Origin: Pochonia chlamydosporia 170
Taxonomy: Eukaryota > Ascomycota > Sordariomycetes > Hypocreales > Clavicipitaceae
DNA length: 64,000 nucleotides
Direction: 5' to 3'
NCBI RefSeq assembly: GCF_001653235.2
Contig: NW_019154048.1
Span: forward strand, 124,001 to 188,000
Below are positions 4,089 to 25,030 of this stretch, piece by piece. Position 1 is the first letter of the stretch. Each line of letters opens with the position of its first letter. Made by a program: the position numbers and the translations under genes. Under the pieces are notes generated by a model that was not told the origin of the DNA, made no database searches, and worked only from the letters and a program-made list of their open reading frames with translations.

Positions 4089-5548
4089 ATGGAGCACCTG
4101 AAGGCTTATGATGACGAAAAGCAAACACAGATTGTCCACGATATATTCGTCGTTAGCAATAGCACCTCGTCTTCATCCTCATCCGCATGCTCAACTACAT
4201 CATCTCGCACCGCGTGTGACCCTGACAACCGTCTTGCGATCGAATTATACACCTCTTCCAAAGAGCCGGCTTTCACCTTTGATCCCCCCGATGGCGGATG
4301 GCGAGCATGGTCTCAGGTTCTTGCCGCCAATCTAGCCAATGCTGTATCATGGGGTTATGCCGCTACATTTGGAGTATACCAGTTGTACTACGTTGATGCT
4401 CTCGGGCTAGCATCCTCTAAAGTATCTTGGATCGGCTCCGTTCAAGTCTTTCTCGCCTTTGTTGTCTGTGCTCCATCTGGACGCATTGCAGATGCAGGCT
4501 ACGCCCACGAAATTATTATTATCGGTTGCTTTTTTGTCGTCCTGGGCTCTTATATGACTAGCTTCTGCTACGAGTATTGGCAAATTATGCTTGCTCAGGG
4601 GGTTTGCACTGGAATCGGGCTTGGGGTCATCTCTACGCCAGCAGTCGCCATAACCAGCTCCTATTTTGACAAACACAGGTCACTGGCGCTGTCCATGTCA
4701 GCGATGGGAACGTCGGCGGGAGGTGTTATCTTCCCAGCAATAGTGCAGTACCTGATTCCTGAGATAGGCTTTCGTTGGGCTACCAGAGTTGCAGCTCTCG
4801 TAGCCCTTGTGATTTGTATAGGCGCTTGTGTGCTCCTAAAGCCTTACATCCCCGGCCGTAAGACTGGTCCACTAGTTGAATGGTCGGCTTTCAAAGAAGT
4901 CTCTTATTCACTGTTCGCTGTGGGCTCTTTTTTAAATTTCTACGGCATGTATTTTGGACTATTTTATGTGAGTACAGTTGTCTTCTTTTGTTTATGTTTG
5001 TTTGCGGAAGCTGTATGCTAACATATTTGCCAAAATAGATCAACAGTTTTGCGCGCAATATTATTGGATTCTCATCTGTCGAATCCGTCAGCCTGTTACT
5101 TATCACGAATGCAATTGGCATACCGGTCAGGCCAATCATAGGCTACCTGGCAAATACACATTTTGGACCCATCAACATCTTTATCCTCGCAACTACCTTT
5201 GTAGGCGTCATGCTCTTTGTTTGGACGACAATTACTAGTCGAACGAGCATGTACGTCTTTAGCGTCTTTTATGGCCTAGCAGTTAGTGCCAACCAAGGTA
5301 CCTACGTTCCATCGTTGGCAAGTTTAACACAAGATCCTCAGAAGATGGGGATTCGATTTGGCATGATCGAGACACTTTGTGCATTCTCAACACTGGCTGG
5401 TCCTCCCACGGCTGGAGCAATCATTGATCGAACCGGGCTCTATGCTCCGGCTCAGATTTGGGGTGGGTCGGTAATGGTAGCTGCCGCTTTGGCCTTTGCA
5501 GCGGCACGCATATCCGTTACAGGGTGGAAGATTAAAGTAGCGATATGA
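4089..5548 (+). CDS. MFS transporter, monocarboxylate-transporter-like
   Basis: Two exons, 4089-4967 and 5039-5548, separated by a 71-base intron (donor GTGAGT, acceptor AATAG), give a 462-residue protein. The ATG at 4089 is the first in frame. A Ser-rich cytosolic N-terminus (about residues 17-40) precedes the motif DPPDGGWRAW, typical of fungal MCT/MCH-type carriers, followed by about 12 hydrophobic segments split by a loop near the exon junction. Family members carry monocarboxylates or related small acids across membranes; the substrate here is not shown by sequence. It lies at the edge of a gene set encoding acid activation and branched-chain acyl-CoA breakdown, so import of the pathway's acid is the simplest inferred role. 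It converges on the regulator gene. Confidence 0.85.
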
Positions 5549-5973
5549 CGTTTTGAGTCGATTGGGGGCCTTGAAGGAGCATGATGTGCGCAACCAGCTT
5601 CAGGATCACCCCCAGTGAGCCGACCATGGCGAAGGGGGCCAGATCCAGGGCTATTGCAAAGGAGGAACATTCAGTACAGATGCTACATATATTCGGAAAC
5701 ACGGCACGCTATGAACTTAATTTAGAATATAGAACTCGTTCAGTGAGGACTACCTTTTTGCTGTTCGAGATACTGCGAAGTAATGTTGGATGGTTTCACG
5801 CCTTCTGTCAAGATGGTACGGAGTATTTTATGTCCGTAAACACCACAAAATTTCTGCGACGCCGGGCCGACCAGATTGTTCTCCCATTCCTCCAGCTTTC
5901 CATCTACACAATAGCACATGACATTTAACTTTTCCATGGCATTTTCAGATTTCACAGCACGAGACAAAGTTCA

Positions 5974-6041
5974 CGGATCAGTGGGGACGGCGACACGGCC
6001 GGAGATGGGGCGGGGACAGACACGGACACGGACACGGACGG
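5974..6041. promoter_or_regulatory. CGG-triplet array between transporter and regulator genes
   Basis: CGG triplets start at 5974, 5988, 5996, 6000, 6011, 6023, 6029, 6035 and 6039; those at 6023, 6029 and 6035 are spaced exactly 6 bases. The rest of the 5549-6282 gap shows nothing recognisable. CGG is the half-site bound by Zn2Cys6 regulators, and comparable arrays sit in three other gaps of this cluster. This copy lies between two convergent gene ends, so it would not act as an ordinary proximal promoter. Binding is inferred. Confidence 0.4.
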
Positions 6042-6282
6042 GTAAATGTGGGGCCACCCAAGACTGGTGTTGGAGACTGGGCGCTGTCTTAGTAGGGAGT
6101 CTGGCTTCACGATTCCGTCTGGTCCTGTCTGGTTGGTTATCGGAACATGACTGTTAAATTTGTTGGTTTCGACCACAATTCCATACAAAGCTACCACGGG
6201 GAAACTGACACGGCATGCGTGTGGTGTATGTGCAGTCATGTGCTTTACACATATTGATAATTATAAATTTACAATTGCCAGA

Positions 6283-8558
6283 CTAGGTCTCGGTATTCCT
6301 CGTCAAATCTGCCTGCGTCATGTAGAACGACGGCACCTCATTCTCGCCCATGTGACTATCTAAAAACGTTGTCCAGTCAGGAATTTGCGCACTCAACCCT
6401 GAAGCAAATGGCGATAACGCCGCTTGGCTATGGCGTGTTCGGTCAGTCAGCCACCCATAGTCTATGATGTCCCAGAGCTGCTCAATTTGTGCCGAGTCGA
6501 TTTCTGATTCTACGGCAGTCGGTGAGGGGTCCATGAGAAGATGTGCCGACTTGGCATCTATACTGAATGACTTTAATGATGCTGCCATCAAGCCATGGTT
6601 CGGCCATCGCACTGGCAAATGTTCAAGGAAGCCGAGGCACATGTCTGAGCAGAGTTTGGCTTGCGTCGCAATCTGCGGATTGGGCGAGAGGGCGAATATA
6701 AGGTGGACGGATACGGCGCATGTTCCGACATAACCCAGAAAGCTACCGCGGGCACAACAACCGACAGCCCGCAGCGTTTCTAGAATATTCGTCAGCTGAA
6801 TCGCATGCTCTCGACAGCGATCCAGTAACTCTCGGGCAAATGTAGTCGGGAAGTAGGGGCAGTGAGCCTTTCGATATCTGCGAAGGTTGACAGGATGGTA
6901 TAGCAAACACCCACACAGGTGGTACACTGCCCTCGCCCAGATAAAGTGGCCGACTCGTTGTCGATCGAAGCCTTCGTAGGTGCCGAATCGATTCGAAACA
7001 TATGCACCTAAATCATCAGATCCCGCAAGGTGAATGCTTTCGAATGTCATCATCATGCTACTAATCTGGGAAAAATTGCTTCGGTGGTCCCATGGCGGTA
7101 TGGTGGACAGGCTTTTCTGGAACGTGTCTCTAACGGTGAGACTCAAGGTAGAGCACATGAGGACCAGAATGGCAAAGTCATCGAGCTGCATCAGAGCGGG
7201 TATGTTGCTAGGCAGATCCTCGAAGAGCGCCATGGTAGGCATCTTTGTCGGCGTCTCCATGCGGAAAGCCTCTTCGCTACAAGGCAGGCCAAGGGTGCAA
7301 TCGGCGTCTAAAATGGCAGGTGGATGGGATCTCCCACAGGAAACAAACTTGTCCAGCAGGTAAACAGACCAAAAGACCCGTCGATGTTCTTCTTGCTGCC
7401 ACGGCGGGAGTGACGCATCTGGCTCTTTGTTGAGGTTGAGGCTTTGAACGAGGCGTATGGCAAGGCCGATTTTGACCCAGCCTAAGCGGTGTCGGCCAGC
7501 TATAGAACACGACAGATTAGCCGTACAGTCTATATTACTTTGTACCTCGTCCCTTTTCTCTTAGCATGGGGCGAGAAATTGCCGTATCAGGCGTCTCAAT
7601 GGGCAATGGCCAACCTACCAGTAAAGTCGATTATGGCGAGCATACTAGTTGCTTGCGCTGCGGCCACGGACTCTGGGCTATGCTCCGTGGCGAATACTTG
7701 GTCAAGTATGATAATCCATGCCGCCCGAGCGAGGCTCTCAACAGCTTCTAGTTGGGATCCGCGGAAGTAGTCGTGGGAGCTATAACGTGCTGCTGTGGCG
7801 GCGAATGCGAGGAGGAGATATTGTGGCAAATCACCAGCGATGAGGCTCCGACGAAAATTGTTTTCATGAAAGAAGCAGTAGGGCTGATTATGGCAGTTGG
7901 AGAAGTACACATCAGCCAGAGACTTGAGTACCGGAACTGGAGGTAGTTGAGAGAACTTGTTGCTGTTGTTGTTATTGGTGCTACATTTGGCTGGGTTTTC
8001 AATCACCACGCTGGGTGAATTTGACCAAACAGGAGCTGGCTGCCCCGGAGGAGACAGTGATGATGGTGAGGTATGCTTCTCCAGATCACTTCCGATTGCC
8101 TGAGCGTCGTTGTTGCGGCCAATTTGTCCTTGTTGTGCGGCGCGAAGGTCCGACTCGAGTTTGGCCACGCGCATAAGAAGCTCGTCCTACATGTACATGA
8201 GACTCAAATACAGAGAAGATTGCTTTGAACAGGCGACTGTAACCATAGTGTTGGCCACTAAACAAAACTTACATTGACGGCCGCAGATGAGAAACGCCGA
8301 GGTGCCGCTGATGGCACTGATGAATGTGACGGATATTCACAGGTCTGGCCCAACCGGACACAGAGTGCGCAAGCTGGGCGCTCCCCTTGACAGCGAGTCT
8401 TTTTTCGCCTAATCATGCATGTTAATATTTCTGAGCTGATGGGCCAGTCAATGGTGTTCGCCGTTGACTGCTCCAGCCGGTGTCGGGACTCGGACGAACC
8501 TGCAATTCAGGCATGCTTGGCGAGGTCGCCTCATCTCACGCTCAGCAGAGTAGGACAT
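6283..8558 (-). CDS. Zn2Cys6 transcription factor of the acyl-CoA cluster
   Basis: Four exons on the minus strand, 8558-8500, 8408-8273, 8186-7619 and 7499-6283, give 659 residues. The binuclear zinc cluster is split by intron 1 (donor GTTCGT) and reads CX2CX6CX6CX2CX6C with Cys at 16, 19, 26, 33, 36 and 43. A short heptad-like segment starting DELLMRVAKLESDL follows, consistent with dimerisation. The middle carries the fungal-specific regulatory domain, including the LGWVKIGLAIRLVQSL and FWSVYLLDKF segments. The ATG at 8558 is chosen because an in-frame stop lies five codons upstream and it precedes the zinc cluster. It lies inside the catabolic cluster, where CGG-rich arrays are repeated, so it is the likely local regulator. 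Intron 1 itself holds CGG at 8478, 8484 and 8491, which might allow self-regulation. Confidence 0.9.
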
Positions 8559-9077
8559 TGAGGCAAAAGATCACATTGAACAAAGGCCCGCTGGCCGTTG
8601 GCAGAAAAGAAACCAATGCCGATGGCTAAGCTACGTGGGAGGGAGTCTGAGCGCTGGAAACGACAGCCGTTGTCATCACCGTCCAAGTTTGTTGTAGTGG
8701 GGAGCCGAGCATCCTTGCCAACGGCATAAAGCTTGTGAGAACGAGATGAAATTGCGGGGAAATACGGAGCTCCATGTCCACATGCAGTCAGATCCAAATG
8801 TGAATAGGCACCAGACAAGACCCCAGAATCTGCTCCATACTCCATAACTCAGCGTTGGTCCCAGAAGGTTTGTGGCGTTTGGATACCCATACAAGCCATA
8901 CCACGGTAGCACAGTCCACAGCAACCTGCTGGGCCAGAGGTGAATACTGGTTATGGAACGGTGCTTGAGTATGTTATGTTGTTCAAAGTTGACTGTCGAA
9001 GAGTAAATCCCACAACTACCTACTTGCAATCATCTAGATCGAATCAAACCCCCAACTCTAATAGCAATTCCTCAACA
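8559..9077. other. Promoter region of the regulator gene
   Basis: This gap lies between the 3' end of the acyl-CoA dehydrogenase gene and the start of the regulator gene, both on the minus strand. It must hold the regulator's promoter. I see no gene and no CGG array comparable to those elsewhere in the cluster. Confidence 0.5.
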
Positions 9078-10694
9078 TCACAGCTTGGCCATCGCACGTT
9101 GTTCCTGTGCCACGGACAGCTCCGTGAGGATCTCTTCGCTTCCACCTCCAATGACCATAACCCTCACATCACGACTGATTTGTTCTACTCGGGCGCCTCG
9201 GCCACCACGCGAGTATCCCAGTCCGCCCATGACTTGTTGCATCTCCCGACTGACAAACTCCAAAGTCTGCCCACACAAAACTTTGAGATTGGCAAAGAGC
9301 CCGCCCAAGTAAATCTCTCTGCCGCCACCTTGTTGAGCCCTGTTGCCACTTTTGATGTGCTCCATGTACACCAATTGTTCCATCAGGGCAGTCGCAGAGT
9401 CAAGTTTGCGTCCGCTGGCGCTGAACTTGGCGCGAATGACTTGGTTCGCAAGCAGTGGCTTGCCAAAGGTCTCCCGAACTTGTGCATATTTGTACGCATC
9501 CTCAACGCAGCAGCGCGCGAGTCGGAGGCTAGTACATGCTAGCCAAAGGCGCTCGTGGTTAAAGTCTGTAGGAGAAGTGTTTCTGCATTAGCTTATGCAG
9601 TTTGATGGGAGTACCGGTTGAAAAGGGAGGAAAACGAACTGGACATGATGATCTCGAATCCCTGATTCTCGCGTCCGAGGAGATACGAAGCCGGCACTTC
9701 AACATTATCAAACTCTATGTATGTTGAACCTGAATATGTGCAAAGCACCTCGAGTCAGCAAATCGACCAAAAATGAGAGATATACATTCCCAGCAGCTCA
9801 CTTACCACTGGCTGTTACACCGGAATTCTCTAGCTTTCTGCATCGCACGCCTGGGGCTTTCAATGGAATGATGAGAGCAGAGACACCATCTTTCCCAGGT
9901 CCTCCAGTACGCACAGCAGCAGTGCAATAGTCAGCGAAAACGCCATTCGTGATCCATTTTTTCGCTCCGTTGACGACAAACTTGTCTCCTTTTCGTTCGG
10001 CCGTCGTCGTAATACCGGCAACATCCGATCCAGCTGTGACTCGAAAAAGACAAATCAGTATCTCGGCATCTTGTTGCTAGTGCCAGCACGAGTTGGGACG
10101 AGTCAAGACGTACCATCAGGCTCCGTGACGGCAAGGCAAAACCGCGTTGTGCCATTAAGGATAGATGGCAAGAACTGCCGCTTTTGATCTTCATTGCCAA
10201 AGTTGATGAGTGGCGGTGCACCGATGGAATTACCACAAGTCAATGCCCAGATGACGCCCAGATATCCACAACGAGCCACTTCATCAATAACAATCAGGTC
10301 ATGAAAGCCGTCCCATTCTTCAGGCTTGATGCCACCAGGGAGTTGCTGGCCGTCTAGGTAGTCCTTGGCAAGCGGAAATACCGATGTAGCCATGTAGCCT
10401 TGTCGAGAATGTTCGGCAATTACCTGCAAAATACACATATGACAGTCAGGCATATTTTGCAACAACAGCAAAGAAAGCCCAAAACCAGAGCCTTAAGGAC
10501 AAAATGGAAGAAATACTTACCTCGGGCGGCACAAAACCTTGTTTCTCCCATTCGTCGCTGAAGGGTAGTATATGTGTGTCGACGTATTGCCGTGCAACTT
10601 TTTGCAGCCGTCGGTGAGTCTCATTGTAATATGGAGAGATGCCACGAGAGAGCCAGAGAGGCTCTACGAATGGGGGATATTTTGTCGAACCCAT
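9078..10694 (-). CDS. Acyl-CoA dehydrogenase, peroxisomal type (PTS1 AKL)
   Basis: Five exons, 10694-10521, 10423-10114, 10033-9806, 9729-9640 and 9565-9078, give 429 residues. The protein has the acyl-CoA dehydrogenase layout: helical N-terminal domain, the AVTEPDAGSDVAG and KKWITNG flavin/substrate segments, then the C-terminal helical domain. The reaction is FAD-dependent alpha,beta-dehydrogenation of an acyl-CoA. The usual catalytic Glu position near the C-terminus is Gly (VIGGGSEEI), while a Glu occurs in NFNHER at the start of the C-terminal domain; in isovaleryl-CoA-dehydrogenase-type enzymes the base lies in that region, so that Glu is the likely base (inference). The C-terminus is AMAKL, and AKL fits a PTS1. 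No mitochondrial presequence is visible. The ATG at 10694 fits family length. It is divergent from the carboxylase alpha gene, suggesting shared control. In this pathway it would supply the unsaturated substrate for the carboxylase. Confidence 0.88.
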
Positions 10695-11185
10695 GGCGAA
10701 ATGGGATGCGCGTGAAGTTGACTGATACAATTCGCGGGATGGTCAAAGAAAGCCGTGAACAGTAGATAAGCACCACAGACAAGAAAGCTGCAAAAGTTTG
10801 CCTTACAGCAACACAGAGAAATGAATAAAACATAAATGGTATTCAACATCTGAACTATCCACAAGACCATTATCAAGTCCGTCTCGACCTCCACCACATG
10901 GCTGGTGTTGTTGGTGACCTTCCCAACTCCATGCCGCCCGTGTGGATTCGAGTCCGCTCCGCCTCCGTCTCCGGCTCCGGGTTCCAACACTCCGATTTAC
11001 ACCGACCGGTTCAAAAACATGTGCTCAGATTGCTTCATATGCGACAACCTCATATCAAGCTCTTCAAAGTCAAATTAATTACCTAGCTACCTGCCCACCA
11101 CACGCTGTATGTCACTTCCGCTGCGGCCGCGCGCGTCTACAAGAAACTACAATCGTTGATTGAGCCCCTGCCAGACGAACCGAAA
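10695..11185. promoter_or_regulatory. Divergent promoter with CGG array (dehydrogenase / carboxylase alpha)
   Basis: This 491-base gap separates two genes transcribed away from each other. On the plus strand CCG triplets start at 10954, 10959, 10965, 10971 and 10977, so the minus strand shows CGG with a spacing of 5, 6, 6 and 6 bases and contains CGGAGACGGAG. The same 11-base string occurs in the other divergent promoter of the cluster, near 16007. Another CCGACCGG lies at 11003-11010. I infer a binding array for the local Zn2Cys6 factor. Confidence 0.5.
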
Positions 11186-13581
11186 ATGCGGTCCCCTGGT
11201 GGTAAATTCGTTGCGCCTATACCATTGAACTCTCAAGGGCATGCAACTATACGTCGAATCCTCATTGCTAATAGAGGCGAGATTGCTTGTCGGGTAATCG
11301 ACACATGTCGCAAGCTTAATATCACATCTGTTGCTGTCTATGTCGATGAGTATGTCGCTCCCAAGCCCCCCCGTGAGGTGAGACCTGATGCAAAGTCCGC
11401 TAACAAGCCTTGAACTTAAGGGATGACACTTCACAACACATCGCATTGGCCGACGAATCCATCGGGCTGGGCTCCATGGATCAACCAGGTGGAAATCCTT
11501 ACTTAAACATTGACCTGCTTGTCCGTGTTGCAGTGGAGAACAGAATTGATGCTATTCACCCTGGTTACGGTTATCTGAGCGAGAATGCCGACTTTGCAAC
11601 GGTGGTGCGCAACGCTGGTATTACATTTGTAGGACCCAGTCCAAGCGCCATGGCAACACTTGGTGACAAGCGGTCGGCAAAGGCATACCTTCGCGAGCAT
11701 GAACCATCTGTGCCTCTAATCCCAGGCTTCGCTGGAACAAGTCAAGATTCTACAGAGCTCGAGAGAATGGCAGATGAGATTGGATATCCAGTCATGCTCA
11801 AGGCCTCAGCAGGCGGCGGAGGCAAAGGCATGCGCATCGTCCAAGAGCGTTCACAGTTATGCGCCGAATTGGAAACCGCACGATCCGAAGCGGCCAGATT
11901 TTTTGGCTCAAGCGACTGCATCTTGGAAAAGTATATAGAACAAGGCAAACACATTGAGGTTCAAATTATAGGAGATAGCCATGGGAACGTCATTTCACTT
12001 GGAGAACGAGACTGCTCCGTGCAAAGGCGACACCAAAAGGTCATTGAGGAGGCACCATCCCCATGGTTGGATGATGAGAAACGCAAGGAAATGAGCGATG
12101 TAGCAATCCGAATTGGAGAGCTCCTCAGTTACGAAAACGCAGGCACCGTCGAGTTTGTCTTTGATGTCGCCACTGGCAAGTTTTACTTTTTAGAAGTAAA
12201 CACGCGGTTGCAAGTCGAACATCCTATTACGGAAGAGGTCACAAGGCTCGATATTGTCTCGTTGCAGCTGTTTGTCGCCGGTGGCGGTGATCTAACAACT
12301 CTGGAACCTCTTCAACAAATCAAGCCCATCGGACATGCAATCGAATGTCGACTGTGCGCTGAGAATCCACAAAGAGACTTCTATCCTGGACATGGTGTAG
12401 TACGACTCTGGCGGCCAGCAGACAGCTATAGCCATCTTTCCAATGACAACACTGTCCGATTCGAAACTGGTATCACAACAGGGTCTCGAATTTCCATCCA
12501 CTTTGACTCCATGATTGCCAAAATCGTTGTCTGGGAACCAACCCGAGCGCTTGCACGGGCCAAAATGATCAAGGTTCTCGCAGGTACTGCGTGTGTTGGA
12601 GTCGGCACAAATCAGCTGTTCCTACAAAGCTGTTTGCTCCATGAACAGTTCTCAAACCCAGCTTATACCACTTCATTTATCCCCGACAACTTGGCTTCCC
12701 TCTTACAGTCCCCATATGCCGCGGCCGCCTCTGAAGTGGTATCCGGATTGCCACTCTTGGTCTCCTACGTGATCAACAGCGCAATAAAACGAGAGATCTC
12801 GGGTAAAACACGCCCGTTTTCAAATATCCGGCCAGGGTTTCGCAATCAATCATTCGACACGGTGAATCACGCTGGTCGCAGAATCGTCGTTATTGATGAC
12901 GATGCGTCAGTGAAGGAATCGTTTGTTTGCTCGTGGACCGAAGCTGGAAACAAAAATGCCCGCACTACCAGCGGTACAATCGCTGCACTTCCAGAAGTTG
13001 ATGGTACAAATGTAACCTCGAGATACAACCAGTTGAGCAATGCTCTGCGCCAGGGCACACTACCAAGCCAGCGGAACTTCAGTGTTGGTATCAAGTCCTG
13101 CGATCTGAAAGTTGTGAAGCCTTTAGTGCGATCTTCTTCGCCTTGGTACGAAGCAACGGTACATGCCACACTGAATGGGAAACAATGTCTCTTACAAGTT
13201 GCCACCGAAAGCAATAATATCGGCCAAAGGGGTATCAGTCAAGTGGCACAAGGGGTTCGGGCTATGTGTCATGTACCACAGCTAGGAACTTGGGTCGACT
13301 TGACCAGCTTCAGCGTGCTCTCCTTTTTCGAAAACATTCGGGAGAAGCAAGTGGAATTTTCGGGTGAAAAGCTGAGACACATCAATGCCCCAATGCCTTG
13401 CAAGGTACTCTCCGTGTTGACAACGGACGGTGAAACTGTCAAGAGTGGTGATAAGGTCATGGTGGTGGAGAGCATGAAGATGGAAATCAACATTTTTGCT
13501 TCTGTAGAAGGTGTGTTTAAACCAAAGGTCAACGAAGGGGATGCTGTTGACGAAGGTAGAGCTCTCTGTATGATTGAATAA
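11186..13581 (+). CDS. Biotin-dependent acyl-CoA carboxylase alpha subunit (3-methylcrotonyl-CoA-carboxylase type)
   Basis: Two exons, 11186-11349 and 11421-13581, give 774 residues. The ATG at 11186 is the first in this frame; the frame extends upstream only without ATG. Domains in order: biotin carboxylase ([11 protein letters not shown] near the start), ATP-grasp with the glycine-rich [12 protein letters not shown] loop and [16 protein letters not shown], a middle BT-like region, and a C-terminal biotinyl domain with ESMKMEI, whose central Lys carries biotin. It carboxylates its own biotin using ATP and bicarbonate; the beta subunit at 13798-15850 would transfer the carboxyl group. The two genes converge, with 216 bases between their stops. 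The protein ends ALCMIE, so it has no PTS1 and no clear mitochondrial presequence. It may enter peroxisomes bound to the beta subunit (inference). Geranyl-CoA carboxylase specificity cannot be excluded. Confidence 0.92.
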
Positions 13582-13797
13582 ATACTGTTGCGACTTCAAC
13601 ATGGAGGTGACATATCCCAGTAACCCATCACGCATGTGCGGCCATGTGCATGATGAAACTGTTTGAAGGTGAAAGGGAGGAGTGTCATCTGTGTGATGGT
13701 GGATTGTGCCTTACTGACAAGCTGACTTTTGAAGGCGGACAACATTGAGAAAAACAAGCGTTACAATCTTGTAGATGTTATTGATCTTAGCACTATA

Positions 13798-15850
13798 TTA
13801 CATTCTAGCCAGCACGCGATGCGCAGCTGCACCCTGGACACCTGGGATCTTGACAACCTCCAGGCATATACCCAGAACATCTCTCGTGTCACGAGGGTCA
13901 ATAACTCCATCGTCGAGAAGAGCTGCACTGGTCCGGTAGCTCTCGCTGTCTCGCTGTACGCTGTCTTTGAGCGACTGGACTCGCGCTTCGACTGCTGCAT
14001 CATCCACTTCCTTGCCCTTGGATTTGGCGCTGTTCGCCTCGATAGTTTGCATTACACCAGCAAGCTGATCCGGGCCCATTACACTACAGCGACCAATCGG
14101 CCAGGTAAAAAGGAATCGTGGCTTATAGGGTCGGCCGCACATAGCATAATTACCAGCGCCATAAGATGCCCCGAGTATGATGGAAATATGAGGCACCGTG
14201 GAGCAACTGACGGCTGATACAAGTTGAGCGCCTTTCTTGATAATGGCGGCATGCTCTGCTTTAGTGCCGACCATGAAGCCAGTAACATTGTGCAGAAATA
14301 TAATCGGCAAGTTGCTGATTCGACCAAAGGTTACCATCTTGCTCGGGTATGGGTTACGTTGTCTGGGTATAGCACTTACGACTGGTTGCAGAGTCGGATG
14401 AATTGGGCTCCTTTGGATGCTTCGTCCGTGTTGATCACTGGAACTTGGTTGGCAATGATACCCACACCGTGACCTAGGAGTCATGTCAGCTTCGTTGGTC
14501 CAAGATGAAGGAAGAATCACATACCCAGTATGCTGGCGAAGCAAGTTAACATGTTCGCACCATAGCTTGGCTTAAAATCGGATAGACGGGAGTCATCTAC
14601 AATGCGAAGGAGGATCTCCTTCATGTCGAATGGCTTTCGAATATCGGGGTCAACCAGGGACAAGATGTCGTCCGGGGAGTATCGAGGAGGTAGAGGGGAA
14701 TCGACAACTGAAACGGTTTGTTCTATTGGCTGTCCAAGGGCAGCAACCCATTCTCGACCTTTGCGGATTGCGTCAAATCTAGAGTTTCTACTGTTAGAAA
14801 GCATCTCTTTCTGGCGCCCTGGGTTACGAAGTTACAGCATACTCATCGTCGGCAATTTGGTCTGCCAGACCCGTAATCTTGGCATGAGTTGCTGCACCGC
14901 CGAGTGTTTCAGCATCTACTGTCTCCCCAGTAGCCATCTTCACCAAGGGCGGGCCTCCCAAGAATACTTGCGCTTGGTCTTTGACGAAAATGCTGTAGTC
15001 TGAAAGGGCGGGATGATAGGCGCCCCCAGCGGTCGACGACCCAAAGACGATTGCGCATGATTGATGTCCCAGCTGGCTTCTCTTGGCAAGATCTCGGAAA
15101 ATTTGGCCTCCTGCGTGGAAAACTTTGAATTGCTGGGGGAGAAACACGCCGGCCTATTCTTGATTAGGTTGTGTCATGAAATCCGTGCGCATCTGATTAC
15201 TAGGACTTACTGATTGAACCAGTGCAACGATGGGCAGACCATTCTCAGTAGCAATTTCCGTGACTCGATTCTGCTTCGGCACTGTTCACTGGCAGTGAGT
15301 AACTTGACTTGTTTCCCCTGACAGGCAATGATGAAAGTGTACTCCGTACTCACCGGTGAATTCATTCCAGGCACCTCCGCTCTGTGTTGGAATGTGTGAT
15401 AACACCAGACATGGTCTCGCGCTGCATCGTGAAACTTGAATCAGCTCGGCTTCCATTCCACATGTCGTTTCAGCAACTCACCAAATGCTCCCTATGCCTG
15501 CAATGAGATTGGCGCAAGGAGGTGCGCCCTCTTGTTGGAATCCAGCATATGCACAAAGCTCAAGGAAAGGCGAGTCTTCGTCCAACAAAAGCGAAATTCT
15601 ATCTCGAGCTACAGAGTGGTCTTAATCTCTGCTCATTCTTAGGCTTGGGGTTGTAAATTGGCTCACCTAATAATTGTCCCCTCGACTGGTGCTTTGTCTG
15701 TGAGCTCGGCGTAGCTTCAGTTGTAGCATATTTAGAGGCAGCCTCAAATTTTTCTAGTATCAGTTGCCACGATTCCCAGTTCGCTTTGAATTGAGGACCG
15801 CGAAGATCGAGGAGCGACTCAACCGCAGGTAGCGCACTGGAGCCCGACAT
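13798..15850 (-). CDS. Acyl-CoA carboxylase beta subunit (carboxyltransferase), PTS1-like ARM end
   Basis: Eight exons fit one frame: 15850-15667, 15608-15482, 15421-15354, 15281-15211, 15153-14843, 14778-14525, 14473-14380 and 14314-13798, giving 541 residues. The acceptor of intron 5 is the least certain; CTCTAG at 14779 is preferred because a CTAAC branch site lies just upstream, and AACAG a few bases earlier is the alternative. The protein follows methylcrotonyl-CoA carboxylase beta throughout: [10 protein letters not shown], the [17 protein letters not shown] oxyanion segment, [38 protein letters not shown] and [14 protein letters not shown]. It transfers carboxybiotin's CO2 to a 3-methyl-2-enoyl-CoA. 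The C-terminus is VLARM, and ARM fits the PTS1 pattern. There is no N-terminal presequence; the start at 15850 gives the common family N-terminus. Confidence 0.9.
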
Positions 15851-16288
15851 GATGGTTCTCGCTGAATGGAATAATTTTGGGTGTGCAAGTTCTGTAACGA
15901 TGCGATGCTATTCTCTCAATTTCTTGCTCCCAGCCCCTGCGACTCTTTAGGTCATTCTAAATTTGATGGCTTGCCAAATTTGCCTACCTTGGTGCATGAC
16001 ATATGACGGAGACGGAGACGGCCACGGGCAGACGGCCGGCCCACCACTTTGGCGATGCCGATGCTCCAACGCGGCGCAGATCAAGTCGCCTGGGTGTAAA
16101 ATGGCTTTACTGATTTCCTAATATGGCATTTGTGCTTGGATTAAGGATTTTACTACGGATTAATGTACTAGACGGTGTCAGCACAAAGTCCCGTTGACAT
16201 TATTTGACATAAACATTTTTTGTACTTCAAAATCGTCTGCATGCAACGCTACCCTTGTCCCTGACATCTGCACAGCATCAAAAGTACA
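15851..16288. promoter_or_regulatory. Divergent promoter with 6-base-periodic CGG array (carboxylase beta / acyl-CoA synthetase)
   Basis: This 438-base gap separates divergent genes. CGG triplets start at 16007, 16013, 16019 and 16025 with an exact 6-base period, then at 16033 and 16037; the core CGGAGACGGAG is shared, on the opposite strand, with the 10695-11185 promoter. The arrangement would place half-sites on nearly alternate faces of the helix. The rest of the gap shows nothing recognisable. Confidence 0.5.
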
Positions 16289-18262
16289 ATGTCTACTCAG
16301 CAAACAAAACTCTCCATTGTCAGCGGTGCGACCGATGAGCCGCTATGGACTTCCACTTTAGGCGCACTGATCGAAACCCAGGCGAGGCATTATGGCGAAC
16401 GTACCGCTGCAGTATTTCCATGGCAAAATGTGTCGATGACTTATCGAGACCTGCTTTTCCGAAGCAAGCTTATTGCCAAAGCCCTGCTTGCCTCTGGAGT
16501 CCAGCATGGGGATGCGGTGGCTATTACAGCCGGGAATTGCTTTCAATACATCGAAGTGTTTTTTGGGGCAGCTCGAATTGGCTGCCCCGTGGTAGTTTTG
16601 AACTCTACCTACACGCCGTCTGAGCTATTACGAGCAGCAGCATTTTCTAGTATGTAATAAGATCTCTCTTGAGTGTAACTCCCTAATCACATGCGTCATA
16701 GAATGCAAAATTGTTTTCGCAGCACGGTTCTCTGGTCCTCGGGGAGATCTGTCCGAGCATCTCCATCACCTTGCTAGAAATTGCAGAGATGATGTTCAAC
16801 TCATTCTCTTTGACGACTTGTTCAAGGCATCGGATGCGCGAGTAAAGTCGACCACATACGACGACTTTGTTGCGCGGCAAGAAGTATCACGCCTTAGCGA
16901 TTTGCTGTTGATGAAAAAGGAGTCACTTGTCAAGGCGGATGATGTGCTCAACATACAATTTACCTCTGGTTAGTGCAAACATTTGCAATTTCCAGGTATG
17001 AAACACTGACACTGACATGGACGAAACTTAGGCACAACTGGCTCACCAAAAGCCTCTATGCTCACACATATGTTAGTCAATTCTAGATGTCGCTTGCAAT
17101 CTTCAACGCTAACGATATGCGATTCAGAAATTTAATAAACAACGGCAAGCTTGTTGGAGATCAACTTCGGCTTACTCAAACAGATGTCATCTGTTGTCCA
17201 CCACCATTGTTCCACTGCTTCGGTCTCGTCATGGGTCTTCTTGGTGCCGTTACGCACGGGAGCTCGATCGTCTTTCCTTCGTCGCAGTTTAACGCAGACC
17301 TGATTCTGGACAGCATTGAATCTGAACGGTGCACTGTTCTATACGGTGTTCCAACTATGTTTGTCGTCGAACTGGAAGCCAACAAAAAGCGGAAGAGAAA
17401 CACGTCATCACTTAAAAAGGCACTTGCTGCTGGCTCACTGGTCCCACAAGCCGTGATGGATAGAATCAAGCGAGAAATCAACCTGGATACTGTGCTGATT
17501 GCATATGGCATGACCGAGACCAGCCCAGTAACCTTCGGTACAGGCTTTGATGACCCTGCGGAATACCGACTTACCTCTGTAGGGACCGTCTTCCCCCACA
17601 CCAGCGCCAAAATTATCGATTCCAAAGGCAATATTGTGCCTCGCGGAGTTCGTGGTGAAATTTGCACCAGTGGATATGCTCTTCAAAAGGGGTATTTGAA
17701 CAACCCTCAAAAAACGGCAGAGGCGATGAGAACAGACCGTGATGGCGTGCTGTGGATGCACACGGGGGATGAGGGCGTCATTGATCAGAACGGATATTGC
17801 CGAGTAACTGGTCGAATTAAAGACACGATAATTAGAGGTAGGGCAATGGCTATTTCAAGCGCGCGAGCAATTTGTCGCTAATTTTGAAACACACATACAG
17901 GTGGCGAAAACATCATGCCAACCGAGATTGAAGAACGGCTTCTGGCTCACGAGAGCATCGCGGAGGCAAGCGTCGTCGGTCTACCGGATGAAAAGTATGG
18001 TGAAGTTGTGGCATGCTTTCTGCGCCAAAACGAAGCGTGTATCAGACCTGATAACGCCGGCATTGCTATCTGGGTGCAGAAGACTCTTGGCCGCCACAAA
18101 GCCCCCAAGTATGTATACTGGATTGGGGATGCCGGGGTTGGGCAAGACTTTCCCAAGACGGGAAGTGGGAAGCACCAGAAACATATTCTTCGGGATATTG
18201 GAACGAGATTGTTGCAGAGCGCTGCTGTGGCACAGGTTGATACACTCAGGGCACGATTGTGA
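16289..18262 (+). CDS. AMP-forming acyl-CoA synthetase (ACSF2-like), PTS1 ARL
   Basis: Five exons, 16289-16649, 16702-16968, 17032-17071, 17128-17837 and 17901-18262, give 579 residues. The AMP-binding signature TSGTTGSPKASMLTH is assembled across introns 2 and 3. Further adenylate-enzyme motifs follow: PPPLFHCFGLVMG, AYGMTETSPV, MHTGDEG, RVTGRIKDTIIRGGENIMP, and the C-terminal catalytic Lys in GSGKHQKHILR. It joins a carboxylic acid to CoA through an acyl-adenylate. Resemblance is to the ACSF2-like short/medium-chain group; the actual acid is unknown. The C-terminus is TLRARL, and ARL fits PTS1. The gene is divergent from the carboxylase beta gene. A CoA ligase in a branched-chain acyl-CoA cluster suggests that a free acid, rather than an amino-acid-derived CoA ester, is the starting point (inference). 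Confidence 0.9.
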
Positions 18263-18857
18263 AGACTTGGGCAAGCTAGAATCTTAAATGTTACGTCTTG
18301 AGCGAAAATTCCCCTTAGAAGTCGTACTGCTTGCACAAGTTCATACCATGTACCTAAGTATGTAATCATTGTGACTAAATCCGTGCATTTCTTCAAACAC
18401 GGAAAATGCGTGTGAAGAGCTCAATGTACACCCATCAGGTTGACAGAGAGGGTGTGCGATAGGATCTATTCAGTAAGACCTCAGCAGACTTGCATGACAT
18501 CTACAGAGGTTCAACCACCCAAACCTCGTCCACGGTTAGCTACCAGGATCACTTATTCCACTGGTGTAAGCATTTCAGATCATGAGCATGCACACGGCCA
18601 GACGGCGAGGTGTGGAGACGGCCGCCGGAAGACGGACGGAGGACACGGACATCCGGTGCGTGTCCGGTTTCGGATGCATCAACCATGATTGTGCCGAGGT
18701 CGATTCGGATGTGTTGCTCGTCTGAAATGGCCATCGTATCCAGTTTCAAGCCAGAGACATGGCGCGAAAATAATATGTGACTGCGGTTTTCTTTGGGCTG
18801 CTCAAATCACCTCAACCATCATCTTCATGCGTGGAGCGACTATCCCATTGCAACACC
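18263..18857. promoter_or_regulatory. Promoter with CGG-rich array upstream of the lyase-hydratase fusion
   Basis: CGG triplets start at 18595, 18603, 18619, 18626, 18633, 18637, 18646, 18654 and 18665, about 190-260 bases before the ATG at 18858. The segment contains GGAGACGG, shared with the array near 16007, and ACACGGAC, shared with the array near 6023. Spacing is less regular than in the divergent promoters. No gene is visible in the gap. Confidence 0.45.
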
Positions 18858-20729
18858 ATGGCATTGCCAACTTCAGCCTCTTCAGTCCGAATTGTCGAAG
18901 TCGGGCCGCGTGACGGACTTCAAAATGTGAAGAAACGGATTCCGACCGCCACGAAAATCGAGCTCATTACAAAGCTACTTGCAGCTGGTCTTCAAACTGT
19001 TGAAGTCACGTCCGTCGTCAGCCCAAGAGCTGTTCCACAACTGGCAGATTGCGAGTCGGTGTTGGTGGATACACAGGTCCAACGATTGCTTCAGGACCCT
19101 CAAAGAAGAGCCCCTGTTCTGATTCCGAACTTAAAGGGTCTGGATATTGCGCTGAAACACGGCGTCAAAGAAGTCGCCGTCTTTGTTAGCGCGTCAGAGG
19201 GCTTCAGTCAAGCCAACATCAAGTGCAGCGTGCAACAGGGGCTCGATAACAGCCGCCATGTTGCTGAAAGGGCTCGGTCTCAGGGCATAGCTGTGCGCGG
19301 GTAAGCCAATCCCGACCCCTCATGTCTTGCGAAAGAAGCTTATACGTCTCAAAGTTATGTGTCCTGCGTCATTTCATGTCCCTTCGACGGACCAACGCCA
19401 CACCAGGCTGTTCTAGGATGCGTCAGACAATTATTAGACATGGGCTGCTATGAAATTAGCCTAGGGGATACTATTGGCGTTGGGACACCTAAACAAGTGC
19501 GAAACCTCATCTTTTTCTTAGTTGAAGCGGGGATTCCCCTGGCAAACCTCGCTGGACACTTCCATGACACTTATGGCCAGGCCATGGCAAATGTGTGGGC
19601 TGCATACGACTGCGGTTTGCGAGTGTTTGACAGCAGTGTAGCCGGTCTTGGAGGTTGTCCGTATGCCCCTGGTGCAAAAGGCAATCTGGCCACAGAAGAC
19701 CTGGTATACTCGCTAGAGATGTCGGGAATACATACTGGTGTAGACCTGGAGCAACTCGTCAACATTGGCAACTGGATATCGCAACAGCTCTCAGCTCCGA
19801 ACTCAAGCCGTGCTGGTGTTGCCTTGCGAGCAGCGAGTAGCAGAACCAAGTCTCGCGAGATTCCACCGAGCACGAACTTGAGATGGACTCAGCAAGATGC
19901 CGGTGAAGGCATTCAGGTCTTCCGAAGCGGAACAAATCTCAAGCTTGTTCTGAACCGTCCTCGAAACGGCAACGCTCTTACAGCCAGCATGATATCACAA
20001 CTGACCGACATCTTTGAAACAGCGCGACTAGATCAAACTATTACAAGAATTGCTCTCGCTGCTCAGGGCAAATACTTTTGCACGGGGATGGACCTCGGAC
20101 GAGGCAGTTCGCCCGTCGCCAAAGGTGGTTCCACTTCGGATGCGCAGTTTACTCGTTTGACACGACTCTTTGAAGCCATTGACAATGCACCACAAGTCAC
20201 TATTGCCCTCGTTCAGGGTCCGGCGTTTGGGGGTGGTGTTGGGCTTGCTTTTGCGTGTGATATTCGTCTTATGACCAGCACGGCTAGCATTAGACTAACC
20301 GAAGTGCGACTTGGACTTGCGCCAGCGACGATATCGAAGTATGTGACTCGAGAGCTTGGTGTTTCATTTACTCGCGAAGCCATGCTATCTGCGCGCACTA
20401 TATCCTCGCAGGAACTTTTGAGATTAGGCAAAGTTGCCGCCGTTATTGAGCCAGGCGAAGAGGCACAACAGGCCCTTGACACTTACATGATTCGCCTGAA
20501 GCAATGTGCGCCCCGTTCGTCAACATTGACGAAGAAGTTGGTTCGGCTAAGTTGGGAAGATGGCGAGGGCGGCAACAAACAGGCTGACGGTATTCGCCAA
20601 GTATTTGACGAGATGATGATGCCAGACAGTGAGGCAGCCCACGGCCTCGAGCAGTTCCAGTCCGGTGTAAAGGAAATAGATTGGGATAGCTATACTCTGA
20701 CAAAGGCACAGAAGAAATCTCGATTGTAG
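18858..20729 (+). CDS. HMG-CoA lyase fused to methylglutaconyl-CoA-hydratase-type domain, PTS1 SRL
   Basis: Two exons, 18858-19300 and 19355-20729 (54-base intron), give 605 residues. Residues about 1-315 are HMG-CoA lyase: VEVGPRDGLQN, RGYVSCVISCPFDG (completed across the intron), SLGDTIGVGTP, HFHDTYGQAMANV and the catalytic-loop signature VAGLGGCPYAPGAKGN. After a linker, residues about 350-590 form an enoyl-CoA hydratase/isomerase domain: GNALTASM, GKYFCTGMDLGRG, GPAFGGGVGLAFACDIRL and LTEVRLGLAPATIS, closest in pattern to LiuC-type methylglutaconyl-CoA hydratases. There is no stop or splice signal between the domains. One polypeptide would hydrate the 3-methylglutaconyl-type CoA and cleave the resulting HMG-type CoA to acetyl-CoA plus a 3-keto acid. 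The ATG at 18858 leaves no mitochondrial presequence. The C-terminus is KKSRL, a strong PTS1. Confidence 0.92.
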
Positions 20730-20890: not shown

Positions 20891-22783
20891 CTAAAATCCG
20901 CCCAATCCTTCCATCTTTTGTACCATACCAACAACCCCTTTGAACAACCCCTCAACTTTGCCAGGGTCACCCATGTATCCCGCACCAGGATTCCCATCTT
21001 TATCTCGCCAGATACCATCCTTGGCTACCCGTCCAAACAAGCTTGTATTTTGGTTTCTGTCGATTCCCTTCATCCAATCGGCACATATTTCCTTGCTGTC
21101 CACCATGACATTGACTTCCTGGCTGTGGAACCACGACTGCGTATCCTGGTTGCCACTGCCTTGAATCCCAACGCTGCCATCCACAATGAGAAGCTTGATG
21201 TGGCATGAGCGAGCTTTGAAGCTGTGGTGGATGGGATGGTCTTGATCCTTTCCCACATAATTGTAAATCCTCAGCAAAGATCTCTCCGGTCCGTCAGGCG
21301 GCAAAGAGTCGACTAGTGATTTGGACACTTGGTCATTGGTCCCGCCTTGACCTGGAATCATTTCCCCCATGTCATTATAGCCAAAGCACACATAATATGT
21401 AACTTGAACTCCACGCTTCAAAGCTTCCACTAATGCTGGCAAAAGAGGCTCTGCATTCAGGTCTGGTGTTTGTATAAATATCTTTTCCCTCGCATTCCGT
21501 ATAAGCGACAGCCATGCTTCATTTTGCGGAACATAGCCGTTACTAGAGCCAAAGCAACCGTACGGAGGACGCGATACCATGGCCATGGGAACAGAAGTAG
21601 GTGTTGTAGTAGAGATGTATGGAGTCATTTCTTCACCGTCAACAATTTCGGGACCAGTTGGCTCAATGGGGTTCTTGACGGGTATGTTTAGCTGTCGATT
21701 AGCAGCCTGAAGACGACTCTCGTTGGGTTTCACAGAATAGGTGTGTTGGATTCGCATAATTTCCCCAGTCAAGTCCTTGTCATAAAGGGGGTCGTCTGTG
21801 GTATGTGGCAAAAGCTGAGTTTGCGACTCCCCAGCAAGCGCAATGTTACTCGTTGTTTGGCCGGGTGAGCGGTCCAGATACAGTCTCTCGTGGTCGTTTG
21901 TGGGCAATCCGCCAGCAGAGGCTGGGACTTGATTTTGCGAAGGCACCGATGTCCTCAGGTTTCGGTACCATGTTATCAGGGCGGTATCGTGAATGCTGTC
22001 AACAATCGGTCCTTCCAGATGCACCATCATCTCCAGATTGTCGTTATCCTGCATGTTGTTACTCATGACGGCTGCAATCTTGCGATCCACCACGCAGAAT
22101 TTGGCATGCAGCGTGCCCAACGGTATAGTGTGCAAGCTTGTAACTTCCAAGTCGACGTTGGGAATTTCGTCGGGACCGGGAAGTCCAACTGATTTTGACG
22201 TATAGTTCTCCGGTTTCACTCTGTGGTGTGAGTCTGGTATGTTTGATGGTCCCGCACTGTCATACATCAAGTTGACCGTTACGCGTTGTCCTCGAGCAAC
22301 TGATCTTCTGGACAACTCAATCAGTGAGTTCCGTAAAAGACGCTGGGCAACAGACGGGGACCAAGCGCATGTTATGAAGAATACTTCTCTCTCAGCTCGT
22401 GCAATGAGATTGGAGCAGTGTCGGATAACGTCTGCCACGGGAGCAATAACAGTAAGTGGCATTGTACCATGGGATCCCATCAACGGAGGCGACACGACTC
22501 CAGACAGGGGATCTGGTCCCAAACAGTTCAAAGCATCGGCAAAGGCCTGCAAGAAGAGAGAACTTGGTTTGGTTGATCCCCAGTTGCCGCACCGTAAGGC
22601 CGCCTCTTGCGCCTCTTGGGAAGGGGGCTGTCTGTGTTCGCTGCCATCGCAATTGCGATCTCGCTTGAACTCCCCATAAAGCTGCTTGATTATGTCGCTC
22701 GGCGCCCGTGAAGGATCTTTCGCCCAAACGGAGCTGACAGTCTCAGACTCGTGGACGAGTTTGAGCACTTGGTCAGAGACCAT
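20891..22783 (-). CDS. Phospholipase-D-superfamily protein with two HKD motifs
   Basis: Single exon, 630 residues, ATG at 22783. Two HxK(x4)D motifs are seen: HAKFCVVD (His226, Lys228, Asp233) and HIKLLIVD (His528, Lys530, Asp535), each followed by an Asn/Ser-Asn-containing segment as in PLD-type phosphodiesterases. The two half-sites would form one active centre acting on phosphodiesters through a phosphohistidine intermediate. No PX/PH or C2 domain precedes the motifs, so it is not a classical eukaryotic PLD but resembles the bacterial-like transphosphatidylase group found in fungi. No signal peptide is clear. It converges on the lyase-hydratase gene with 161 bases between and is probably outside the catabolic cluster. 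Its substrate is unknown. Confidence 0.85.
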   Translation of the reverse strand: MVSDQVLKLVHESETVSSVWAKDPSRAPSDIIKQLYGEFKRDRNCDGSEHRQPPSQEAQEAALRCGNWGSTKPSSLFLQAFADALNCLGPDPLSGVVSPPLMGSHGTMPLTVIAPVADVIRHCSNLIARAEREVFFITCAWSPSVAQRLLRNSLIELSRRSVARGQRVTVNLMYDSAGPSNIPDSHHRVKPENYTSKSVGLPGPDEIPNVDLEVTSLHTIPLGTLHAKFCVVDRKIAAVMSNNMQDNDNLEMMVHLEGPIVDSIHDTALITWYRNLRTSVPSQNQVPASAGGLPTNDHERLYLDRSPGQTTSNIALAGESQTQLLPHTTDDPLYDKDLTGEIMRIQHTYSVKPNESRLQAANRQLNIPVKNPIEPTGPEIVDGEEMTPYISTTTPTSVPMAMVSRPPYGCFGSSNGYVPQNEAWLSLIRNAREKIFIQTPDLNAEPLLPALVEALKRGVQVTYYVCFGYNDMGEMIPGQGGTNDQVSKSLVDSLPPDGPERSLLRIYNYVGKDQDHPIHHSFKARSCHIKLLIVDGSVGIQGSGNQDTQSWFHSQEVNVMVDSKEICADWMKGIDRNQNTSLFGRVAKDGIWRDKDGNPGAGYMGDPGKVEGLFKGVVGMVQKMEGLGGF

Positions 22784-23335
22784 GATGATGAAGGAAAGCG
22801 GAGTATGCTTGTGAACAATGTATAATGGTACAGGCTTGTGTTTAACACAATATTAGCGCATCGCCTTTTAGCTGCTTTTGATATCAATCCCATGGCATTT
22901 ATGTTTTGTTGTCAATTCAAGATCCTGAAGCCAACATGAGTTACAAAACCCACTTACACCCCGGAAAAGCGGCAACTGCATAACGTCATCGGATGTGAGA
23001 TTCAAGGAACAATGGCTGATGTGGCAACGGAACAAGCCACATTCAGCATCTCGGCAGAATAGTTGCCTAGCCCATTCTATCTATGTGTATCCAAACGGGA
23101 GAGGCATGAAAGATATTAATATAATCGGGAAAACGGCAATGGAACATCGTGCGTCTAGTGCATGTATGGCGCCACGGCGTCGGCTGCGACCCAAAATTTT
23201 GCAGACACAAGAGGTACAAAGCCAGCACCACTAGATGACAACTTTTTGCGGCTGAATAGTTGAGTACCGCTGAATATTTTCAATTGTGAATACCTAGGAT
23301 TCAATCATGGCAGTTCTACCGCTCTGTTCCCATCA
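22784..23335. other. Intergenic stretch
   Basis: This gap lies between the FAD monooxygenase 3' end and the PLD-like gene start, both on the minus strand. It contains the PLD-like promoter. I see no gene, RNA or repeat in it. Confidence 0.5.
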
Positions 23336-25030
23336 TCATGCTTGGGAAGCTTCACTCGCTAGCGAACTATACATGTTGCCATGACCAGAAAGATAGCCTG
23401 TGATTTCATCATTGCGTTCTTCTTCCCCATACTCCTGCCATCCAGATGGTTTCACTGTTGCTTCAATTGCCCATGCAACTCGTTCTGCTCCCAGTTTTGC
23501 ACCACCGATATTTGGAGCGGCCGGCCCCAATCTCAGTGCAGATAGCCTTCCCAGTGTAAACAATGGCACATTGTCTTTCCACATTAAATCGTCATTGACA
23601 CAGGGGAATCCACCATAGCTGTTGATCGGATATTTCCGTTGCATAGTTTGCAGATAAGATAGTCTTGAAACGTCTGTCTGGATTCCTGTCGCGAAATAGA
23701 TGTAGTCGAAGCGTGGCATATTTGCGACTGGCGGTTCAGTTTTCACCATCCACATACCACATCCGTCATCAGGTTCCAAAAACGTGGCATCTACCAAGCT
23801 CGTTTTCTCAAAGAGTTCTAGTCGTCCTGAAGCGACGTGTTGTCTCAACCTTTTATGGAATAGAGGTGTGAAACTGCCGCCACCTCTCGCTTCCTTGATA
23901 ATGTTCAATCTCTCCTCGTCCGAATCAGCAAGCCAAAACCTTGCTTGCTCGGTGTTTTTATACTTTCCCATCCACTCGAGATCAACATCAAAATGTTTGA
24001 CGCGGCAGGGTCCTCGCATTATATGCCAAACCTTGGTCACGCCTCTGCGAATCGCAAGGTCCGACAGTTGAGCAGATGTCAATCCGCCTCCTACAACCAG
24101 AACATTGGTCTGCCGCCCAGACGCCATTCTCGCCTGGACAATTGCATCAGGAAATTCTTCGATTTGCATACTGTGGCGAGCTTGACGCAGATGCTGCAAC
24201 TGGGTGGGCATAGACGGCAACCTAGGAATCTCAGGTTTGTTTGCAGCACCCACTGCGAGAACCACGGTCTTGGAGTAAAGTCGTCCAACAGAAGTTGTAA
24301 CTGTAAATATGCTCTCTTCATCAATTGAAACACCTCTCACAATTCCATAGTCAAGATCCAATAGCATTCCTTTTTTAATCATGCTACTATCGAGGCAGTA
24401 TCTTGTGGCGACATGTTCGCAGTGGTCACAAAACAGAGATTGTGAAGGCGTGTAGTAATCGTTCCTCTCACGTAAATTGATGGCGACTCTCGCTTCTTGC
24501 CTGACAACTGGTTAGCTGAATGACGCAATCCGTGTAAGTAGTTGGAGATAGATTCACTTTTTGCCACAATGTCGGTTTCCCGCGCTCTTCTTCTTTGCAT
24601 GCTTGCTGATCTCTTTTCCGACGCAGTTGCGAATCTCGACCAACTCGTTCTCTCGATTCTCAGAATAAGCATGAGCCAACAAAGAGTCCCGATCGAGAGG
24701 ATCAACATGCCACAGCATTGGGCTCCTCAGATGTGAAATGTCATACAAGCCAAATAGCTTGTTCCATCGACCAAGCCACTTGTCGTCGGTGCCGTCGAGG
24801 ACCATCATTTTGTATTCCGGTCGTGCATTGCGGCGTGGAACGGACATTTTGTTGCTTCGCACATGCTTCAGGCTCACCTTGTTGCCATATTTCCGTATCC
24901 AGTGAAATCTGCGATGCTCTTCATCTGTGAAGAGCGCAGCTGGAGTATGCTCGCGTAGGCGGGCTGCCGTTGCGAGGCCACATGGACCGGCACCAACAAC
25001 GATAACATCGTAAACTTCGGTGTCCGTCAT
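23336..25030 (-). CDS. FAD-dependent monooxygenase (flavin-containing / N-hydroxylase-like)
   Basis: Two exons, 25030-24558 and 24500-23336, with a 57-base intron (donor GTGAAT, branch GCTAAC, acceptor TCAG), give 545 residues. The ATG at 25030 directly precedes the FAD-binding segment VIVVGAGPCGLATA; a second dinucleotide-binding segment VLVVGGGLTSAQLSDLA lies in the middle, and an FATG-like segment (YFATGIQTD) near the C-terminal third. This is the two-Rossmann plan of flavin monooxygenases that use NADPH and O2. It could oxygenate N, S or a ketone; the substrate cannot be read from sequence. It lies next to a trt5/AusD-like methyltransferase on the same strand, so the two might modify the same small molecule. 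No synthase gene is within the window. Confidence 0.8.

Follow-up and report, generated by a model that had tools for sequence, protein, structure and literature searches.

The substrate pocket of gamma-carboxylating biotin enzymes has been described by Jurado et al., 2015 (PMC4673880; this and the other papers are cited here from portions of their text). The beta subunit of 3-methylcrotonyl-CoA carboxylase (MCC) carries Phe191, preceded by a three-residue insertion, while geranyl-CoA carboxylase (GCC) has Gly162 and no insertion; swapping the residues at these positions shifts substrate preference, 3-methylcrotonyl-CoA being a very poor substrate for wild-type GCC. Mycobacterial AccD2 also deviates from the MCC motif; PMC4347857 describes its function as unknown and reports that an M. 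smegmatis strain deleted for accD2-accA2 matches the wild type in growth on isovalerate. In the terpene route of Pseudomonas, LiuE is said in a review (PMC4097962) to act as well as in its own pathway, and PMC4847356 assigns that same step to AtuA. Set beside these is a seven-gene block of Pochonia chlamydosporia 170, at positions 4089-20729 of a 64,000-nucleotide stretch (the window), which is contig C13, 124001-188000, in a genome of 44.2 Mb and 49 contigs.

The block is a real, conserved pathway cluster, a variant of the liu/atu kind. It probably encodes, though we would not put this strongly, an inducible, largely peroxisomal catabolism in which gamma-carboxylation serves to degrade beta-methyl acids exceeding isovalerate in size; the most likely of these are acyclic isoprenoid acids of citronellate or geranate size or longer. 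The carrier would import the free beta-methyl-branched acid, the ligase would form its CoA ester, the acyl-CoA dehydrogenase (ACAD) would put in the 2,3 double bond, and the alpha/beta biotin enzyme would carboxylate the gamma (beta-methyl) carbon. The product would then take up water at the hydratase half of the fusion protein and lose a two-carbon unit at the lyase half, so that the branch blocking beta-oxidation would be gone. We infer this order of reactions, as we do the substrate, the import of alpha with beta and the inducibility. The genes and the two divergent intergenic regions, in window coordinates, are:

4089..5548, + strand: major facilitator superfamily (MFS) carrier, monocarboxylate transporter (MCT)-like, 462 aa; exons 4089-4967 and 5039-5548; Pfam MFS_1, 110 bits; DGGW motif
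6283..8558, - strand: Zn2Cys6 transcription factor, 659 aa; 4 exons; stop codon checked; Pfam Zn_clus and Fungal_trans
9078..10694, - strand: ACAD, apparently not of the isovaleryl-CoA dehydrogenase (IVD) type, 429 aa; 5 exons; identified by Pfam; C-terminus AKL
10695..11185, no strand: ACAD/alpha intergenic region between divergent gene models, candidate shared promoter
11186..13581, + strand: biotin carboxylase/biotin carboxyl carrier protein alpha, 774 aa; 2 exons; biotin motif VESMKM; lacks a type 1 peroxisomal targeting signal (PTS1)
13798..15850, - strand: carboxyltransferase beta, 546 aa; 8 exons; GCC-like pocket signature (three-residue deletion and Gly at the MCC Phe191 site); C-terminus ARM
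15851..16288, no strand: beta/ligase intergenic region between divergent gene models, candidate shared promoter
16289..18262, + strand: AMP-forming acyl-CoA ligase, 579 aa; 5 exons; Pfam AMP-binding, 285 bits; C-terminus ARL
18858..20729, + strand: 3-hydroxy-3-methylglutaryl (HMG)-CoA-lyase/enoyl-CoA-hydratase fusion, 605 aa; 2 exons; Pfam HMGL-like and ECH_1; C-terminus SRL

Spliced models were built for all seven genes and are predictions from reading frame, splice sites and conservation; domains were checked with Pfam for six of the proteins and, for beta, by matches to solved carboxyltransferases. The intergenic gaps, in gene order, are 734, 519, 491, 216, 438 and 595 bp, and since all are of 734 bp or less there is no room for a further sizeable gene inside the block. 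The spliced models, domain matches and gap sizes bear out the initial annotation, which had described seven named genes in one contiguous block with no unrelated gene between them. The divergent ACAD/alpha and beta/ligase pairs may share promoters. Alpha has the Pfam domains Biotin_carb_N, CPSase_L_D2, Biotin_carb_C and Biotin_lipoyl. The only Pfam match of the carrier is MFS_1, the label "MCT-like" coming from the DGGW motif, which we take to be indicative of such carriers. The ligase scores 509 bits against the NCBIfam fatty acid CoA ligase family, under the cut-off of 832, and the lyase and hydratase domains of the fusion occupy residues 10-288 and 345-573, respectively. The base composition of the cluster is unremarkable.

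The carboxyltransferase beta subunit

The pocket was compared across 102 aligned beta proteins: 50 of the MCC clade, 20 fungal, 24 AccD2-like, five GCC-type and three from Chloroflexota. All 50 of the MCC-clade rows, which include the human and P. aeruginosa enzymes and the fungus's own second beta, MCCB, on contig C3, have Phe and no gap. The three-residue gap is found in all of the fungal cluster rows, where Gly occupies the site 17 times, Ala twice and Thr once, and in all of the AccD2-like bacterial rows (Gly 19, Tyr 4, Ala 1), while the five GCC-type and three Chloroflexota rows have both gap and Gly throughout. Among the 120 best homologues of the window beta -- the lists used here are in each case the best 120 of thousands of matches for the protein -- the site of MCC Phe191 is Gly in 106, Ala in nine, Thr in four (one of these from a gene model that aligns poorly) and absent from one, with Phe in none; the gap is of three residues in 119 and longer in the remaining one. 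The window beta itself lacks both the Phe191 and the insertion that mark MCC, and has the Gly without insertion that marks GCC. Its closest named homologue in that list is from Metarhizium anisopliae, at 88% identity. Many of the short-loop fungal betas are named methylcrotonoyl-CoA carboxylase in the databases, some of them as "mitochondrial", and others hypothetical protein; the first of these names is contradicted by the pocket signature together with the tree.

A quick tree of all 102 rows and a careful tree of 40 hand-chosen rows, both unrooted, place the fungal betas as one clade inside the AccD2-like group, whose other members come from Bacteroidota, Myxococcota, Actinomycetota and Acidobacteriota. 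Support for the fungal plus AccD2-like grouping is 100/100 in the careful tree, and in the quick tree the fungal betas lie nearest to Bacteroidota (SH-aLRT 97). The MCC rows form a clade of their own (100/99), and the split between MCC and all of the short-loop enzymes has support of 100/99.9. Constraining the fungal betas to group with MCC was rejected (approximately unbiased (AU) test, p 0.016), as was constraining them to group with GCC (AU p 0.0014), despite the GCC pocket signature. Judged from its sequence, beta appears to be neither an MCC nor a GCC, but a member of the AccD2-like clade. The GCC label of the five rows comes from operon order and an AtuA neighbor; the name AccD2 was given to the Mycolicibacter row, L079, by resemblance, M. 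tuberculosis AccD2 being absent from the tree. As the trees are unrooted, neither the direction of transfer nor gain as against loss of the loop can be read from them.

Partner enzymes, predicted location and genomic context

The window ACAD also seems from its alignment scores not to be an IVD, because its best IVD match reaches 122 bits, as against 405-460 bits for the genome's own IVD, on contig C3, with five solved IVD sequences. Its nearest solved chains are 3oib and 3r7k, at 184-185 bits, and its closest paralogues in the genome are three other ACADs (43-47% identity), the genome's own IVD being 31% identical. This IVD belongs to a second set of IVD, MCCA, MCCB and HMGL, of the kind for which the initial annotation had called for a search, and which was found with IVD and MCCB adjoining on opposite strands of C3, MCCA on C4 and HMGL on C1. 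All four of the proteins have N-termini that look by eye basic and presequence-like, and the second beta (C3:2805229-2806719) is 48% identical to that of the window over residues 145-471. Because this set sits on other contigs, the idea that the cluster is the housekeeping leucine route was ruled out, and the proposal of a dedicated pathway distinct from that route gains support. Three other biotin-carboxylase matches were set aside, those at C2:5976522 and C5:150044 looking by eye like urea amidolyases and that at C1:1039707, which adjoins an HMGL-like match at C1:1036825, being taken as a pyruvate carboxylase.

Four of the five enzymes have PTS1-like C-termini, namely ACAD (AKL), beta (ARM), the ligase (ARL) and the fusion (SRL); alpha ends MIE, and a match to the type 2 signal was sought in it and none was found. 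At least four such tails among five enzymes would be expected by chance, from residue composition, with a probability of about 1e-9. Homologues of beta, the fusion and ACAD were examined with the pattern [SAPC][KRHQ][LMIF], which is found in 116/120, 116/120 and 99/120, the ACAD list extending to 52% identity. These tails, kept in the homologues, agree with the peroxisome-type character first proposed for the cluster. The tail of beta, LAR[ILM], is homologous to the GVFRM and GVARL ends of bacterial relatives, and is the weakest of the four signals because it is in part inherited; ARM as sole proof of peroxisomal import was dropped for that reason. Since peroxisomes can import folded complexes, it is conceivable that alpha could enter while bound to beta.

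The lyase domain of the fusion matches the solved bacterial HMG-CoA lyase 2ftp at 307 bits and the NCBIfam HMG-CoA lyase PRK05692 at 382 bits, over the cut-off of 246, and four of its lyase motifs occur in 114, 110, 120 and 96 of the 120 best homologues. The best solved match of the hydratase domain is 4zu2, a putative isohexenylglutaconyl-CoA hydratase that we take to be AtuE of P. aeruginosa, at 110 bits, as against 73 for human AUH (methylglutaconyl-CoA hydratase). In Aspergillus terreus a 945-aa model (P0213, ATERTT37_006710) joins AMP-ligase, lyase and hydratase; it may reflect a genuine three-part protein or else separate genes merged in the model.

In other ascomycetes the core genes are linked by locus tags, as seen in the homologue lists. 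The bacterial neighborhoods comprise 80 loci, the best of at least 593 matches, some of them ending at contig edges; 48 serve as comparison, made up of 47 MCC-clade loci and L100, a fragment outside the tree that was counted there by default. The AtuA and BKACE queries were taken from the AccD2-like loci L052 and L053 after inspection; the counts are post hoc and the p-values descriptive. AtuA lies near beta in 4/24 AccD2-like, 5/5 GCC-type, 2/3 Chloroflexota and 1/48 other loci, BKACE in 4/24, 0/5, 1/3 and 0/48, and an HMG-CoA lyase in 0/24, 0/5, 0/3 and 2/48, respectively. One or other of AtuA and BKACE is present in 16/32 short-loop loci, as against 1/48 (Fisher p 2.9e-7), with neither gene in the other half; for AtuA alone the figures are 11/32 and 1/48. 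AtuA (11/32) and BKACE (5/32) never occur together in the fetched short-loop loci, which suggests that both may be able to fill the cleavage step there. The genome also has an AtuA-family gene at C9:40109-41987 (PF07287, 383 bits), unlinked to the cluster, whose last exon ends HENAAHL, which is PTS1-like; it might provide an acetate-lyase step for larger substrates.

Directly downstream of the cluster, window 20894-26344 holds, on the - strand, open reading frames (ORFs) for a phospholipase D (PLD)-like protein, an FAD-oxidoreductase-like protein (Pfam score under cut-off) and a methyltransferase, with no evident link to the cluster, and five further ORFs inspected there besides the PLD-like gene (-) show no evident tie to the pathway. 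On the 5' flank no long ORF occurs for about 4 kb; the one that follows was taken by eye for a kinesin. About 20 kb upstream of the cluster, at C13:102505-106472, a second MFS-like ORF adjoins what looks by eye like a Zn2Cys6-type regulator. No description of this cluster was found among the open-access papers listed by the literature searches, and the portions of PMC5595782, PMC7842363 and PMC4368105 considered do not describe it.

Likely substrate and competing explanations

A substrate larger than isovalerate is indicated by the open-pocket signature, by the non-IVD ACAD and, more weakly, by the hydratase match, and, with AtuA lying near some of the bacterial relatives that have this pocket, the likeliest class is isoprenoid acids. 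Several points weigh on the other side. The best four solved matches of beta span 404-415 bits and include human MCC, at 404; P. aeruginosa MCC and GCC score 393 and 390 bits; GCC comes only sixth when the pocket segment is compared alone; and the tree, as noted, rejects a grouping with GCC. The deletion and the Gly may be ancestral, neither of them names a substrate, and the pocket could be filled by other side chains. The lead of 4zu2 among the hydratases is small, with the unnamed hydratases 4k3w and 4kpk at 96 and 92 bits, and the domain scores 148 bits against a generic crotonase NCBIfam and 103 against gamma-carboxygeranoyl-CoA hydratase NF004227 (cut-off 426 bits), both under cut-off. 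The chemistry of HMG-CoA lyase suits HMG-CoA, which yields acetoacetate, while from a large substrate the product would be a free 3-oxo acid, which would have to be activated again. In addition, an MCT-type carrier suggests a small acid, neither AtuA nor an alcohol or aldehyde dehydrogenase (AtuB/G) is found by Pfam among the cluster proteins, and the peroxisomal location of the pathway is a prediction from the tails.

Some of these same features could belong to a second, peroxisomal isovalerate/3-methylcrotonate route, scavenging the free C5 acid to acetoacetate and acetyl-CoA. The set would be complete for this purpose, ending in a lyase domain that clears its HMG-CoA lyase cut-off (2ftp 307 bits; 382 against 246) and keeps its motifs in 96-120 of the 120 best homologues; beta is overall as similar to MCC as to GCC, the carrier is MCT-like, and there is no terpene-alcohol enzyme in the cluster. 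What makes such a route unlikely is the carboxylase, whose pocket residue and loop are unlike those of every MCC-clade row, with no Phe in any of the best homologues and membership in the MCC clade rejected at AU p 0.016, together with an ACAD that is not an IVD; moreover, 3-methylcrotonyl-CoA is used very poorly by GCC, which has this signature too (PMC4673880). Isovalerate and 3-methylcrotonate, both on the substrate list of the initial annotation, are accordingly disfavored, beta being without the MCC pocket and the ACAD not IVD-like. It is less probable still that the substrate is some other 3-substituted 2-enoyl-CoA, for instance a ring-derived one of the cyclohexenylacetyl-CoA type, with the lyase opening the ring or splitting the chain. 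A gene cluster for anaerobic naphthalene metabolism is listed as containing AtuA-like lyases (PMC12016498), and the replacement of AtuA by BKACE in some bacterial relatives suggests varied substrates in the clade, but Pfam finds no ring-oxidising enzyme in the block. AFT10-1 and apdG appear among the names of the ACAD homologues, and secondary metabolism biosynthetic enzyme among those of the fusion homologues, as might be expected if a methyl-branched acyl group were made in the peroxisome for a secondary metabolite; this we consider very improbable, since the block has no synthase, P450 or transferase by Pfam, the lyase step is degradative, and the homologues are spread over many unrelated fungi.

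Beyond catabolism of larger, isoprenoid-type acids, the explanation we prefer, there is a wider proposal that is tentative and on the whole doubtful: the AccD2-like enzymes may form a third gamma-carboxylase branch, distinct from MCC and GCC and acting on beta-methyl acids of isoprenoid origin, with the whole pathway peroxisomal in ascomycetes and the lyase-hydratase fusion standing at the AtuA, or perhaps BKACE, step. If so, fungi would gain a complete route mineralising acyclic isoprenoid acids, and the orphan mycobacterial AccD2-AccA2 would be given a substrate class and tied to a pathway with partners. A conserved peroxisomal gamma-carboxylation module would provide a gene-level handle on the breakdown of branched and isoprenoid acids in fungi, and the annotation of beta as methylcrotonoyl-CoA carboxylase or hypothetical protein would be corrected in many genomes.

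Comparison with known systems

The enzyme order had initially been likened to that of the bacterial liu and atu operons, but this likeness fails: the five fetched atu-type GCC loci run beta-ACAD-hydratase-alpha, whereas the window has ACAD-alpha-beta-ligase-lyase/hydratase on mixed strands. The liu gene order is likewise unlike that of the window. With Pseudomonas liuRABCDE (PMC4097962) the cluster has in common a cleavage of the HMG-CoA lyase type, but it has neither an IVD nor an MCC-type beta, its lyase is in a fusion, and its gene order differs. With Pseudomonas atuABCDEFGH (PMC4097962, PMC4847356) it shares a ligase, an ACAD and a gamma-carboxylase with Gly and the short loop, and the window hydratase, whose best solved match, by a small lead, is the putative isohexenylglutaconyl-CoA hydratase, may be a further likeness to that pathway. 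The cluster departs from atu in having a beta of another clade, a block without AtuA, AtuB or AtuG, an HMGL fused to the hydratase, and PTS1-like tails.

Mycobacterial AccD2-AccA2 (PMC4347857) represents, by way of the Mycolicibacter row L079, the nearest carboxyltransferase clade, with the short loop and without the MCC Phe, though, unlike in the window, no gene of the HMG-CoA-lyase type was found in any of the 24 AccD2-like bacterial loci. Among filamentous ascomycetes, a likewise clustered ACAD and biotin carboxylase alpha and beta are found in mccB-ivdA-mccA of Aspergillus nidulans (AN4687, AN4688, AN4690; PMC4117967). There the IVD is mitochondrial, whereas the window has PTS1-like tails, a non-IVD ACAD and a non-MCC beta; it also adds the ligase, lyase-hydratase, carrier and regulator, in a genome that keeps its own IVD/MCCB pair on C3.

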